A stretch of DNA of 5,060 nt from a bacterium (GTDB lineage Bacteria; Patescibacteriota; Minisyncoccia; Minisyncoccales; Minisyncoccaceae), in the NCBI GenBank assembly GCA_023229485.1, contig JALNZJ010000069.1, forward strand, positions 1-5,060. The letters run 5' to 3'. Shown here piece by piece: positions 2,102 to 4,411 of this stretch. Position 1 is the stretch's first letter. Each line of letters starts with the position of its first letter. Below the pieces are notes generated by a model. The model was not told the origin of the DNA and searched no databases. It saw only the letters and a list, made by a program, of their open reading frames with translations. Position numbers and translations under genes: made by a program.

Positions 2102-2102
2102 T

Positions 2103-2131
2103 TTGACTTCGGATAATATTTCTGATAAATT
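2103..2131 (+). promoter_or_regulatory. Putative promoter of leader module 1
   Basis: TTGACT (2103-2108) matches the -35 consensus at five of six positions and begins two bases after the hydrolase stop. TAAATT (2126-2131), 17 bases downstream, is a weaker -10 (4 of 6). Transcription would start near 2138, about six bases before the leader ATG at 2144, consistent with the short leaders of neighbouring genes. Confidence 0.45.
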
Positions 2132-2143
2132 TAATTTGCGATT

Positions 2144-2215
2144 ATGAAAAATATACAAATCAAAAACATTTATATTTTGTTTTGGGCTCAACGAAGAGTC
2201 ATTTTTGATTTGTAG
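2144..2215 (+). CDS. Leader peptide 1 (23 residues, contains ILFWAQ)
   Basis: This short ORF starts MKNIQIKN, has the core ILFWAQ (residues 11-16) and ends VIFDL before TAG. A paralogous ORF follows at 2287 with a similar start and the same ILFWAQ. The matching bases ATTTTGTTTTGGGCTCAA are in the same reading frame in both copies. After CAA the two diverge: the next conserved bases, GAGTCATTTTTG, are read in different frames because the spacer is 4 bases here and 6 in copy 2. So the peptide is conserved up to Gln and the RNA beyond it. The stop lies inside the left arm of the antiterminator hairpin, as expected of a regulatory leader. A small hydrophobic toxin or membrane peptide is the alternative. 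No Shine-Dalgarno sequence is seen. Confidence 0.6.
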   Translation: MKNIQIKNIYILFWAQRRVIFDL

Positions 2216-2266
2216 GAAATCTATTACTTCTATAAAACAAAGCTGACTCTTGCGAGTCGGCTTTTT
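2185..2266 (+). promoter_or_regulatory. Attenuator 1: competing antiterminator and terminator folds
   Basis: Four segments can pair in alternatives. Segment 1, GGCTC (2185-2189, within the Trp-Ala-Gln codons), can pair weakly with segment 2, GAGTC (2196-2200). Segment 2, AAGAGTCA (2194-2201), pairs perfectly with segment 3, TGACTCTT (2244-2251), extended by an inner stem between 2205-2217 and 2228-2240 with one A-A mismatch. Segment 3 also forms the left arm of the terminator with segment 4, GAGTCGGC (2254-2261). The 2:3 and 3:4 pairings exclude each other, the architecture of leader-peptide attenuators such as trp. A ribosome halted near Trp14 should favour 2:3 and read-through. One reaching the stop at 2213 would cover segment 2 and favour termination. 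Confidence 0.6.
2239..2266 (+). terminator. Intrinsic terminator of attenuator 1
   Basis: AAAGCTGACTC (2239-2249) pairs with GAGTCGGCTTT (2254-2264) over 11 positions with one G-U, around the loop TTGC, and ends in T5 (2262-2266). It is also the first terminator downstream of the hydrolase gene. Confidence 0.85.
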
Positions 2267-2279
2267 AAATTGATATAAA
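2250..2279 (+). promoter_or_regulatory. Putative promoter of leader module 2 (leaderless)
   Basis: TATAAA at 2274-2279 places a start site at about 2286-2287, exactly at the leader ATG at 2287. TTGCGA (2250-2255), 18 bases upstream, is a weak -35 (4 of 6) lying in the loop and stem of terminator 1. A second TATAAA at 2280-2285 is too close to the ATG to be used for it. If this promoter is inactive, module 2 would depend on read-through of module 1. Confidence 0.4.
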
Positions 2280-2286
2280 TATAAAA

Positions 2287-2373
2287 ATGAAAAAAATAAT
2301 AATCAAAAAAAATTATAGCTTGTTTATTTTGTTTTGGGCTCAAACATTCGAGTCATTTTTGTTTTGTGGATAA
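2287..2373 (+). CDS. Leader peptide 2 (28 residues, contains ILFWAQ)
   Basis: This is the paralogue of the leader ORF at 2144. It starts MKKIIIKKN, carries ILFWAQ at residues 14-19 (Trp17, codon 2335-2337) and ends SFLFCG before TAA. The N-terminal half is basic and the rest hydrophobic. The conserved ILFWAQ codons overlap segment 1 of the attenuator. Although its frame after Gln differs from copy 1, its stop falls within the same left arm of the antiterminator stem, four bases later in the alignment. No Shine-Dalgarno sequence is present, and the ATG follows a -10 box by seven bases. It may sense tryptophan supply, another tRNA, or an inhibitor that stalls ribosomes; a single Trp codon makes simple tryptophan sensing uncertain. 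Confidence 0.6.
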   Translation: MKKIIIKKNYSLFILFWAQTFESFLFCG

Positions 2374-2422
2374 TGTAATATTGTCCATAAAACAAAGCTG
2401 ACTCGAAAGAGTCAGCTTTTTT
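2337..2422 (+). promoter_or_regulatory. Attenuator 2: 28-position antiterminator hairpin versus terminator
   Basis: Segment 2, TTCGAGTCA (2347-2355), pairs with segment 3, TGACTCGAA (2399-2407), over nine bases. The helix continues through one mismatch (2356/2398) and two pairs into a 16-bp stem, TTGTTTTGTGGATAAT (2359-2374) with 2380-2395, closed by the loop GTAAT. The hairpin spans 2347-2407. Segment 3 can instead pair with GAGTCAGC (2409-2416) to make the terminator. Segment 1, GGCTC (2337-2341), can pair with GAGTC (2350-2354), but only over five positions with a G-U. The gene at 2449 begins 26 bases after the terminator T-tract with no room for its own promoter, so the choice of fold should decide its expression. 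Confidence 0.65.
2394..2422 (+). terminator. Intrinsic terminator of attenuator 2
   Basis: AAAGCTGACTC (2394-2404) pairs perfectly with GAGTCAGCTTT (2409-2419) around the stable tetraloop GAAA, followed by T-rich sequence to 2422. The stem is 11 bp with T6 at 2417-2422. It stands directly in front of the coding region at 2449. Confidence 0.87.
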
Positions 2423-2433
2423 AGTTCTTTGAA

Positions 2434-2443
2434 AAGAAGGTGA
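2434..2443 (+). promoter_or_regulatory. Strong ribosome binding site deciding a TTG start
   Basis: AAGAAGGTGA differs at one base from the ideal AAGGAGGTGA complement of the 16S 3' end. With this site the in-frame TTG at 2449 has a normal spacing of five bases. The in-frame GTG at 2440 overlaps the site and cannot use it. Among the full-length genes here this is the only clear Shine-Dalgarno sequence, as expected for a gene translated as a downstream cistron. Confidence 0.6.
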
Positions 2444-2448
2444 ATAAT

Positions 2449-3426
2449 TTGTGTTATTACATACATGAAAGTAAGGACTTAGCCTCAGCGATTGAGGCAA
2501 GGCAAGAAAAACAGGAACAGATTGCAGAAAAGATTGATGAATGGGTTTTTTCAAAATGGGGAATTGCTAATTTTTCACATTTATTTGAAAGCTCATTGAA
2601 ATTGCCCCAAAGTTATACTTATGGAACTCTTTGTCGGCAAGTAGCAACTGCACGAATAGAAGAAGTAAGTTTTTCTTTAACGTGCAAATCATTAGGATTA
2701 AAACCGTTGGATTTAACTTATCATGAAGATGCCTTCAGTACTAATAATGGAGATAAAGTCCATTTAATAAAATTGCCCTTAATTACTGGGCATTCAAAAA
2801 ATGGCAGTCCCATTGTAAAGTATAAGAAGATCGTTGATTTTCCTCAAGCAGGAATGTTGTTGAATAAAATTTCAATTGATGGAAATGGAACAAATCTTCC
2901 TAAGTATCATCGTAATTTAAGAGAAGACACTTTTGGGAATGATATTCCTCTTGAAATTGATATTGGCTCAACTTTTAAAAAATATCTTCGTGATTGCACC
3001 AGTCAGCCAGAATATCTTTATGAAGATATTGATGGGATTAGGGTTAAAAAAAATGTTTCTGACGGGTACGAATTATCGCGATCAAATCCTCCTGCGGATT
3101 GGTATTATCCTTTGTATCTACTTGGATTTATGACTGGCAAGATGGTTCTGTTTGAAACTTACGAAAACCCAAAGGGCAATGTGTGTGACATAAAGAAGCA
3201 TTTTTGCTGTGCAATGGATATGATCAAAGAAGAGATTGGATTATATCCTTTGGTGGTAGAAATTCCTCCGTTGCAATTACCTATGATGTATATTAATGAA
3301 GCATTAATAGAAAAGGATAATTGGCAAACCGAATTAATTTATCCTTCGATAGGGAAAAACAGCAGAATTATTGAAGTATTTCAAAATTTTGCTGATCAAA
3401 CAATATCTTTAAGGAAAAACACATAG
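2449..3426 (+). CDS. Unrecognised 325-residue protein downstream of tandem attenuators
   Basis: I do not recognise the family. With the TTG start chosen from the Shine-Dalgarno spacing, the product begins MCYYIHESKDL and is 325 residues; starting at GTG 2440 adds three. There is no signal peptide or clear membrane segment, so it is probably soluble. A charged, likely helical stretch covers residues 10-35. Later landmarks are DGNGTNLPKYHRN near 145-155, a hydrophobic aromatic patch WYYPLYLLGFMTGKM near 218-232, a Cys/His cluster CDIKKHFCC at 246-254, and PLVVEIPPLQLPMM near 267-280. If the initiator Met is removed, Cys2 would be N-terminal, which is suggestive of but not evidence for an N-terminal nucleophile. 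The frame is intact. Its expression seems to depend on read-through of the terminator at 2394, implying induction under a translation-related signal. The 3' end lies within a perfect hairpin. Confidence 0.85.
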   Translation: MCYYIHESKDLASAIEARQEKQEQIAEKIDEWVFSKWGIANFSHLFESSLKLPQSYTYGTLCRQVATARIEEVSFSLTCKSLGLKPLDLTYHEDAFSTNNGDKVHLIKLPLITGHSKNGSPIVKYKKIVDFPQAGMLLNKISIDGNGTNLPKYHRNLREDTFGNDIPLEIDIGSTFKKYLRDCTSQPEYLYEDIDGIRVKKNVSDGYELSRSNPPADWYYPLYLLGFMTGKMVLFETYENPKGNVCDIKKHFCCAMDMIKEEIGLYPLVVEIPPLQLPMMYINEALIEKDNWQTELIYPSIGKNSRIIEVFQNFADQTISLRKNT

Positions 3427-3443
3427 TGTTTTTCCTTAAAGAT
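3405..3443. terminator. 18-bp perfect hairpin across the stop codon
   Basis: The segment 3405-3422 is the exact reverse complement of 3426-3443, with a three-base loop ATA, so the stem covers the last six codons and the TAG at 3424-3426. It is A/T-rich with GG and CC in the middle, followed by TTATTATTTT. It likely terminates or stabilises the 3' end of the transcript, and being symmetrical it could act on both strands. Confidence 0.6.
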
Positions 3444-3466: not shown

Positions 3467-4411
3467 ATGGAATTTAGTATGGTAAAATTTATTGAGAAGA
3501 TTATTGGTTTTGGAGAAAGGCAGGGCGAGATAGAGAAAAAAGTCGCTGATTTTATTATTGAAATTTTGAAGCAAAATGGAATCGAATATTATTTGCATAA
3601 GTTTGAAACGGAAATACCCGAGATAAAAAAATCAATTTTAATGGCTGACTCTAAGTTAATTGATTCAAAAGCAACATCGTTTGTTTCGGGAAAAATAGTG
3701 GAGAAGGGTAGTCTTGTGAGCTCATTGATCCCATCAAGATTTCTTTTGGATTATCAAAATATAAATTTTAACCCTGCTTGCGATGCTATTTCACAAAGTA
3801 ATTTTTATTTTTCGCCATCGCTTGCGATAGCAAAAAAAGATTTGGTCAGTATTATGAATGCGGATAATATTTTTGCAGAAGTTTTGGTTGAAAGAAAAAA
3901 GCATGAGTCAAAAAATATTTTAGTTGGAAATAATAAAAATCCGTATAATATTATTTTTGCTCATTATGATTCGGTTTCCATTGGAGCAACTGATAATGCT
4001 TCGGGAGTGGCAGTTGTAATGAATACTGTCCTTTCTAATAATGAGTTACTTGAAAAAAATTTATTTGTTTTTTCTGGCAACGAAGAACTGTCTTATGATA
4101 AGCCAACTTATTGGGGGCATGGTTTTCGTGCTTTTGAAGATAGCTATTTTGAATTATTGAAAAATGCTAGAGGAATATTTGTTATTGATTGTGTTGGAAA
4201 TGGAAAAACAGTTTTGACAAATAATCTTGATATTGGCCAGCTGGCATTTCCGATAAAGAATAAGACTATCTTAACTGATAAGATATTTATTATGCATTCG
4301 GATATAGAGAAGTTATTTAAAGTTTATCACTCTGAGCTGGATGATTTGTCGCAATTGGGCGAAAAAGACTTGGCAGAAGCTTATGATCTGCTTATTGGTG
4401 AATTAAAATGA
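3467..4411 (+). CDS. M28-family zinc peptidase (aminopeptidase-like)
   Basis: Peptidase family M28 enzymes are co-catalytic two-zinc exopeptidases that remove N-terminal residues. All expected metal and catalytic positions appear in order: His166 and Asp168 in AHYDSV, the bridging Asp176 in GATDNASG, the catalytic and metal pair Glu206-Glu207 in SGNEELS, Asp241 in FVIDCVGNG, and His288 in VYHSELDD. The N-terminal helix region GERQGEIEKKVADFIIEIL (16-34) resembles the usual opening of the fold. At 314 residues the length is ordinary for a single-domain member. No signal peptide or membrane anchor is seen, so it is probably cytoplasmic. Glutaminyl cyclases share the fold but bind one zinc, and the complete two-metal set argues for a peptidase. 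ATG at 3467 was chosen; the in-frame ATG at 3479 is equally possible since neither has a ribosome site. The stop is a tandem TGA TGA. Confidence 0.88.
   Translation: MEFSMVKFIEKIIGFGERQGEIEKKVADFIIEILKQNGIEYYLHKFETEIPEIKKSILMADSKLIDSKATSFVSGKIVEKGSLVSSLIPSRFLLDYQNINFNPACDAISQSNFYFSPSLAIAKKDLVSIMNADNIFAEVLVERKKHESKNILVGNNKNPYNIIFAHYDSVSIGATDNASGVAVVMNTVLSNNELLEKNLFVFSGNEELSYDKPTYWGHGFRAFEDSYFELLKNARGIFVIDCVGNGKTVLTNNLDIGQLAFPIKNKTILTDKIFIMHSDIEKLFKVYHSELDDLSQLGEKDLAEAYDLLIGELK

Follow-up and report, generated by a model that had tools for sequence, protein, structure and literature searches.

The DNA analysed here, a 5,060-nt stretch that we refer to as the window, carries on its + strand, in this order, ung, an alpha/beta hydrolase gene, two leader modules, an open reading frame (ORF) of 328 amino acids without an assigned family, an M28 peptidase gene and the gene for a HIT protein. 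The modules begin just 3′ of the hydrolase stop codon at 2101, and each contains a short ORF followed by RNA with two alternative pairings, in which segment 3 joins either segment 2, forming an antiterminator, or segment 4, forming an intrinsic terminator. The elements are as follows.

2103–2131, + strand: promoter-like site, TTGACT-17-TAAATT with TG before the -10 element (9 of 12 consensus matches)
2144–2215, + strand: leader ORF 1, ATG at 2144, 23 codons plus stop codon (2213–2215), peptide MKNIQIKNIYILFWAQRRVIFDL, no Shine-Dalgarno sequence
2174–2191, + strand: ILFWAQ codons of leader 1, with Leu 16, Phe 13 and Trp 10 nt before segment 2
2196–2249, + strand: predicted antiterminator 1, segment 2 (2196–2206) paired with segment 3 (2239–2249), plus an inner helix
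2239–2264, + strand: intrinsic terminator 1, segment 3 (2239–2249) paired with segment 4 (2254–2264), then a T tract; −15.2 kcal/mol
2287–2373, + strand: leader ORF 2, ATG at 2287, 28 codons plus stop codon (2371–2373), peptide MKKIIIKKNYSLFILFWAQTFESFLFCG, no Shine-Dalgarno sequence
2326–2343, + strand: ILFWAQ codons of leader 2, with Leu 18, Phe 15 and Trp 12 nt before segment 2
2350–2404, + strand: predicted antiterminator 2, segment 2 (2350–2360) paired with segment 3 (2394–2404)
2394–2419, + strand: intrinsic terminator 2, segment 4 at 2409–2419; −16.8 kcal/mol
2435–2440, + strand: Shine-Dalgarno sequence AGAAGG of the structural gene (hybridisation −6.0 kcal/mol, versus 0.6 at both leaders)
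2449–3426, + strand: regulated gene, about 325 amino acids (328 if from GTG 2440), no family in Pfam, NCBIfam or PHROGs
3467–4411, + strand: M28-family metallopeptidase gene; HYDS, DNxSG and EELSYD are invariant in nine aligned sequences (the window and eight others)

The promoter-like site predicts a transcription start at about 2138–2141, leaving leader 1 a 5′ untranslated region of only about 3–6 nt. Aligned with each other, the modules are identical in 104 of 137 columns, for which a tandem duplication is the simplest reading. Leader 2 has no promoter of its own, the sole fitting promoter being the one that precedes module 1; because leader 2 lacks both a Shine-Dalgarno sequence and a nearby 5′ end on the read-through transcript, its translation is hard to explain. 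For the structural gene, the start is likely TTG 2449 rather than GTG 2440, given the homolog N termini and the overlap of the GTG with the Shine-Dalgarno sequence. In an Rfam scan of 2102–2448, no amino-acid leader family (Trp_leader, Leu_leader, His_leader and others) matched at E ≤ 1, nor did the T-box riboswitch model anywhere in the window at that threshold. Two miRNA models fell on the module 2 hairpin with 27.4 and 25.4 bits (cut-offs 54 and 63) and were taken as chance.

Several further features lie elsewhere in the window. A tRNA gene at 55–125, whose anticodon by eye is CTG and which is hence a tRNA-Gln gene, is directly followed by a 113-nt direct repeat (151–263 and 270–382, 87% identical); both copies finish in text resembling the 3′ end of the tRNA, which points to duplication of tRNA 3′ fragments. 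The Rfam Phe_leader model scores 25.2 bits at 130–247, against a cut-off of 55. Ahead of ung, a promoter-like TTAAAA-17-TATAAT within 456–490 ends at 484, 5 nt before the ATG, and, judged from this spacing, the ung transcript may be leaderless too. An 18-bp hairpin (3405–3443) with T-rich flanks on both strands spans the stop codon of the 328-aa gene; it may be a terminator between this gene and the M28 peptidase gene and thus may limit co-transcription of the latter.

Reading the DNA upstream of homologs of the regulated gene revealed the same layout, comprising a short ORF, a segment 2 that matches segment 4, a terminator and usually a promoter-like site, at 13 other Patescibacteria-type loci (L001, L002, L003, L007, L010, L011, L012, L017, L021, L026, L027, L028 and L033), which with the window make 14 loci and 15 modules. 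A contig search gave three loci with homologs, and overlapping genome samples contained homologs in 5 of 247 genomes for one order, 15 of 383 for the class and 10 of 379 for the phylum. Relatives of the 328-aa protein occur in Candidatus Paceibacterota, in other Patescibacteria and in records named only ‘bacterium’, so that the host is likely a Patescibacterium; none was found in viral contigs. The counts leave out L034 (E = 6e-4), a second gene copy in genome G212 about 50 nt behind the first, and repeats of loci already included (L004–L006 and L025, which equal L001–L003, and L024, L029, L030 and L035–L038, which equal others). A promoter with 8–12 of 12 matches stands at the corresponding place in 12 of the 13 relatives, L028 having none by the motif used. 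A combined pattern scan recovers 13 of the 15 modules with the intended start, missing window module 2 and L028, and in these 13 the leader starts 5–24 nt after the -10 element (12 nt for leader 1). Shine-Dalgarno hybridisation averages −1.9 kcal/mol at the 15 leader starts and −8.6 kcal/mol at the structural genes, a comparison in which the L021 structural start is misplaced (weakening the difference), the window gene is counted twice and L017 and L033 have no structural value; weak Shine-Dalgarno-like sites occur in the leaders of L002 (−5.2 kcal/mol) and L003 (−5.4 kcal/mol).

Divergent paralogs of the regulated protein were also covered: scanning as far as 450 nt ahead of 12 distinct genes of this kind (13 scans, L008 and L009 having reached one shared copy) yielded no leader match. 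All but one of these paralogs (L008/L009, L013–L016, L018, L019, L022, L023, L031 and L032, with L020 the exception) adjoin a gene for a multi-TM protein in which a YSH-containing, YYSHIPT-like stretch occurs. Cys-rich ORF ends, some of them DCxxPDxCPPN-like, lie directly upstream of the paralog in L014, L018, L022, L031 and L032. Short ORFs and alternative pairing, whose lack at homologous loci the first-pass annotation of this DNA had named as evidence against an attenuator, are both present at all 14 loci, and the 12 paralogs without a leader match belong to other gene neighbourhoods.

This distribution bears on two simple accounts of the locus. Terminator-like sites are common in the window (10 found against 2.8 expected in shuffles) and the modules directly follow the hydrolase stop, so that they might be plain back-to-back terminators behind that gene, with ORFs arising by chance. 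However, the promoter-like site separates the hydrolase gene from leader 1, the ORF and segment 2 recur in 14 loci, 13 of which have a promoter-like site, and the scan ahead of the 12 paralog genes gave no match, all of which makes this account highly improbable. The ORFs might instead encode small hydrophobic proteins with a function of their own, such as type I toxin-like ones, with the hairpins as their terminators, a reading that suits short hydrophobic peptides with adjacent hairpins; yet the peptides vary in both sequence and length, some cores (CLCC) are not membrane-like and the ORFs precede one gene family in 14 loci, leaving it barely plausible.

Loose settings of the pattern scan gave 40 rows in 341,898 b of genome G002, whereas under strict settings (terminator ≤ −14, ATG start, promoter of at least 9 of 12) only the leader of G002 itself remains. 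A scan of 738,749 b taken from seven genomes of the set, with a promoter of at least 9 and a terminator ≤ −10 required, returned 11 distinct ORFs, comprising two before amino-acid genes, four unassigned ones and five family leaders, which lay on stretches fetched for holding the family or came from the same genomes. Four candidates that pass middling settings (L047, L058, L059 and L060) were taken as chance, as three precede unrelated genes and one has no gene within 350 nt. The scan is incomplete, having missed L096, a leader found by eye.

We then considered the RNA folds. Each whole module of the window folds better than all 200 of its dinucleotide shuffles (z = −4.65 for module 1 and −7.02 for module 2), and in both modules an antiterminator and a terminator that share segment 3, and hence exclude each other, are predicted. 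RNA that runs from segment 2 and is cut before segment 4 is predicted to form the antiterminator (−17.0 and −28.4 kcal/mol for modules 1 and 2), while hiding the RNA as far as 14 nt beyond the first stop-codon base, to mimic a ribosome parked there, leaves only the terminator to form (−15.8 and −17.4 kcal/mol). For the full RNA of the window modules, the best fold consists of the terminator together with the inner portion of the long hairpin. Once segment 4 is included, 14 of the 15 modules reach a more stable fold (in the window by 4.0 and 5.1 kcal/mol), and in one, L012, stability is equal. Because the equilibrium fold thus favours the terminator in the window, antitermination must be kinetic, occurring during transcription; the trp leader switch likewise acts while transcription proceeds.

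The pairing is consistent across the family. Compared with 1,000 dinucleotide shuffles of the upstream sequence, the duplex between segments 2 and 3 gives a combined p of about 1e-12 over the 15 modules, a value that overstates independence, as do the other p-values, because the two modules of the window are copies of each other, L002 is related to L003, and loci, start codons and terminators were picked by eye. Single p-values range from 0.001 to 0.20 and are ≤0.054 in 12 modules; the weakest outside the window are L028 (0.20) and L027 (0.09), and the window modules (0.054 for module 1 and 0.09 for module 2) become strong only with the relatives added. The 1:2 helix has p = 0.048 and 0.07 in the window, falls below 0.05 in 3 of 15 modules and combines to p = 0.005. 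In ten modules, including both of the window (6 and 10 nt), the stop codon lies at most 12 nt beyond segment 2, a position that fits masking by a terminating ribosome. In the other five (L003, L010, L012, L026 and L027) it lies 16–24 nt past that end, and a ribosome waiting there may fail to cover segment 2. The first-pass annotation had read from the window alone two modules, each with a short ILFWAQ ORF and with a hairpin and a terminator drawn from shared bases; both ORFs and the predicted terminators and antiterminators are confirmed, as are the leader stops inside the left antiterminator arm (2213–2215 and 2371–2373). Its proposal of a leader-peptide attenuator with exclusive 2:3 and 3:4 pairing gains from the consistent 2:3 duplex, and its suspicion that masking of segment 2 at the stop matters more than the weak 1:2 helix agrees with the contrast between the two helices.

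These same observations would also suit a general sensor of translation speed or initiation, in which any slow or absent leading ribosome frees segment 2, the identity of the codons is minor and the U-rich stretch keeps the RNA open: ribosome-free RNA cut before segment 4 is predicted to form the antiterminator in both window modules, the 1:2 helix is weak and unconserved, and a U-rich region lies ahead of segment 2. The leader codons argue otherwise. Codons for W, C, F, Y, I, L, V or M make up 77 of the 108 lying 6–27 nt before segment 2, compared with 66 of 183 at greater distance (p = 8e-9) and with a baseline of 37% in 16 proteins of these loci; the share is highest at 15–17 nt from segment 2, where 14 of the 15 modules have a hydrophobic or Cys codon. 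Cys (12 codons against 1.8 expected) and Trp (5 against 1.3) are both enriched in the 6–27 nt region. This excess is a property of the reading frame (71% in frame, 52% and 53% off frame) and exceeds base composition, since shuffling the bases yields 61.7 ± 3.7 hydrophobic codons and none of 2,000 shuffles reaches the observed 77. Together with the cognate codons in leaders ahead of amino-acid genes described below, this makes a sensor indifferent to codon identity unlikely.

The residues themselves differ from locus to locus, and leaders of different species are too dissimilar in sequence for a covariance model. ILFWAQ, found twice in the window, which the first-pass annotation had taken as the core, is absent from all 13 other leaders, whose cores are WYFLFIIFSS, ACLCC, ACFCCIIC, ICFVLIL, YKWLKHF, YFCWMLFIIVLFY, MLICVLIIV, CTKKTF, SCLCC, NYWHSM, WFILFMIMLFVM, WYALAC and LISVILL; CLCC or CFCC occurs in L002, L003 and L021. 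Leaders of similar build ahead of amino-acid genes indicate which codons may count. In all four such leaders, a cognate codon lies 16–18 nt before segment 2: Ile for citramalate synthase and for a gene of isopropylmalate-synthase (IPMS) type, Leu for LeuA and, as a putative match, Phe for an aminotransferase. The citramalate synthase leader has Ile at 7 of 27 residues (p = 0.002), that of the IPMS-type gene (L096) at 8 of 26 (p = 0.0002), the LeuA leader (L097) has Leu at 6 of 30 (p = 0.07) and the leader of the aminotransferase operon F, Y or W at 8 of 32 (p = 0.014). Three predicted attenuators lie within about 5 kb of one genome, G555 (L064 6567–12851, G555:C1): an Ile leader ahead of citramalate synthase (TIGR00977, 744.6 bits with the cut-off at 450), one before the aminoacyl-tRNA synthetase-like (aaRS-like) and M28 genes, and a Phe/Tyr/Trp leader ahead of two genes, one for a 277-aa protein present in 1 of 285 genomes and the other for the aminotransferase (Aminotran_1_2; the top NCBIfam match, hisC, is below its cut-off). 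Among eight citramalate or IPMS-type loci, leaders precede three (G555, L096 and L097); the other five gave no match in the pattern scan and were viewed by eye over one stretch each, which for L094 is almost wholly intragenic. L096 (NF002085, 622 bits against 517) shows no promoter by the motif used, and its Ile-rich leader would not be strictly cognate if L096 is a true LeuA; L097, a leuA interrupted by frame breaks in its database record, has a weak terminator (−7.1) behind its Leu-rich leader.

In the window, the slot corresponding to these cognate codons holds Leu (16 nt) in module 1 and Phe (15 nt) or Leu (18 nt) in module 2; Ile, Tyr and Trp lie nearby and, unlike in Trp or His leaders, no single amino acid dominates. 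Trp occurs in 8 of the 15 modules, but in the window it lies 10–12 nt from segment 2, closer than the cognate codons at 16–18 nt in the amino-acid-gene leaders. From these positions we infer that the window leaders are mixed hydrophobic sensors rather than Trp sensors, and a sensing role for Trp-Ala-Gln, the codons to which the first-pass annotation pointed, is not supported. Because cognate codons also stand at 5–11 nt in three of the four amino-acid-gene leaders, Trp may still play a part in the window.

A nascent hydrophobic peptide that stalls the ribosome on a drug or metabolite would operate the same RNA switch, and leaders of the erm and TnaC types work as such arrest peptides. In nearly all leaders here, the residues encoded ahead of segment 2 include hydrophobic, aromatic or Cys ones, and in the window Trp is single and no amino acid forms a run; the upstream hydrolase is faintly like macrolide esterase models, at 30.4 bits against a cut-off of 420, far below any call. 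Arrest peptides require particular residues, however, and the peptides here differ between loci (ILFWAQ, ACLCC, ICFVLIL and NYWHSM), while in similarly built leaders the codons match the Ile, Leu or aromatic genes that follow. Moreover, a scan of five window proteins found no drug-resistance or tryptophanase family above cut-off. We therefore regard peptide-induced arrest as a minor possibility.

The regulated protein has a structure model that resembles the cores of BshC and class I aminoacyl-tRNA synthetases, a similarity of fold only, with 10–11% identity to BshC and class I lysyl-tRNA synthetase. A plain Foldseek search returned no match at E ≤ 1e-3, and a sequence search of the PDB nothing credible. 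An M28 peptidase gene lies 3′ of the regulated gene in 11 of the 14 leader-bearing loci, the exceptions being L011, L026 (an amidohydrolase) and L033.

Sequence and computation show that both ORFs and a promoter-like site are present, that the predicted pairings exclude each other and that the layout recurs with differing peptide cores. We consider it probable, from these sequence features, that the window carries two serial ribosome-mediated transcription attenuators, which would turn on the aaRS-like protein, and probably the M28 peptidase, when amino acids of the hydrophobic codons are scarce. Transcription would begin a few nucleotides ahead of leader 1, and a ribosome would load immediately on the near-leaderless ORF. 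A ribosome running freely to the stop codon would cover segment 2, leaving segment 3 to pair with segment 4 and terminate transcription. If the ribosome instead paused at the Ile-Leu-Phe-Trp stretch for lack of charged tRNA, it would halt with its edge just before segment 2, and the exposed segment 2 would capture segment 3 before segment 4 exists, allowing the polymerase to pass. The polymerase would next meet the duplicated module 2, such that expression would need passage of both; two modules in series would reduce leakage.

More tentatively, and as a possibility that we do not favour outright, Patescibacteria, presumed scavengers, may carry home-grown, near-leaderless attenuators by which an operon for an enzyme of aaRS fold, usually with a cytosolic M28 peptidase, serves as a shared starvation response, each species rewriting the leader core for its own scarce amino acid (Cys; Ile, Leu or Val; or aromatic) and the window stacking two modules for a sharper switch. 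Little is known of how these reduced bacteria, most of them uncultured, sense nutrients. If the starvation-attenuation reading is right, leader codons of a gene family without an assigned function could be read from a genome to name the amino acid that each species is short of, amino-acid sensing in Patescibacteria would become testable with reporters, and there would be a lead to the function of the aaRS-like protein usually kept beside an M28 peptidase.

Classical ribosome-mediated attenuators include the trp, his, leu, ilv and pheST leaders of Proteobacteria, and the Mtb ilvB1 leader has a biosynthetic target. The modules described here share with the classical attenuators the short ORF, the alternative of 2:3 and 3:4 pairing, a stop codon near segment 2 and a terminator before the structural gene. 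They differ in that most lack a run of one amino acid, the 1:2 helix is unconserved, the start is predicted to be near-leaderless, the target is neither a known biosynthetic enzyme nor a canonical aminoacyl-tRNA synthetase, and in the window the modules are in tandem. In Actinobacteria, a comparative study reports such leaders before amino-acid and aminoacyl-tRNA synthetase genes, with trpS and leuS among the targets (PMC1262725). Passages on mycobacteria describe leaderless polycysteine short ORFs that attenuate (Canestrari et al. 2020, as cited in PMC9031893 and PMC13236596), with cysteine supply regulating translation of the downstream genes (PMC9031893). As those passages present them, they have in common with the present leaders a short ORF that is leaderless or, here, by prediction nearly so and, in L002, L003 and L021, the CLCC or CFCC motif; in contrast to them, the leaders here come with a terminator and antiterminator pair and most are not Cys-rich. 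For Mtb ilvB1, the corresponding passages give a Rho-independent terminator preceded by a predicted leader peptide that contains BCAA codons (PMC13236596), an arrangement resembling the one here except for the 166-nt length of the ilvB1 leader.

Among the matches listed in our literature search, which were judged mostly by title and did not extend to subscription papers or preprints, none concerned attenuation or leader-peptide control in Patescibacteria or CPR bacteria. The text of a 2024 perspective on Patescibacteria has neither ‘attenuat’ nor ‘leader’ (PMC11665869), and ‘leader peptide’ in the excerpts of PMC7143001 refers to bacteriocins. The type that the first-pass annotation had called unfamiliar would operate as classical ribosome-mediated attenuation; what would be new, as far as these searches reach, is the lineage, the near-leaderless build combined with a terminator, the target, the variation among species in the leader amino acids for one type of operon, and the tandem pair.
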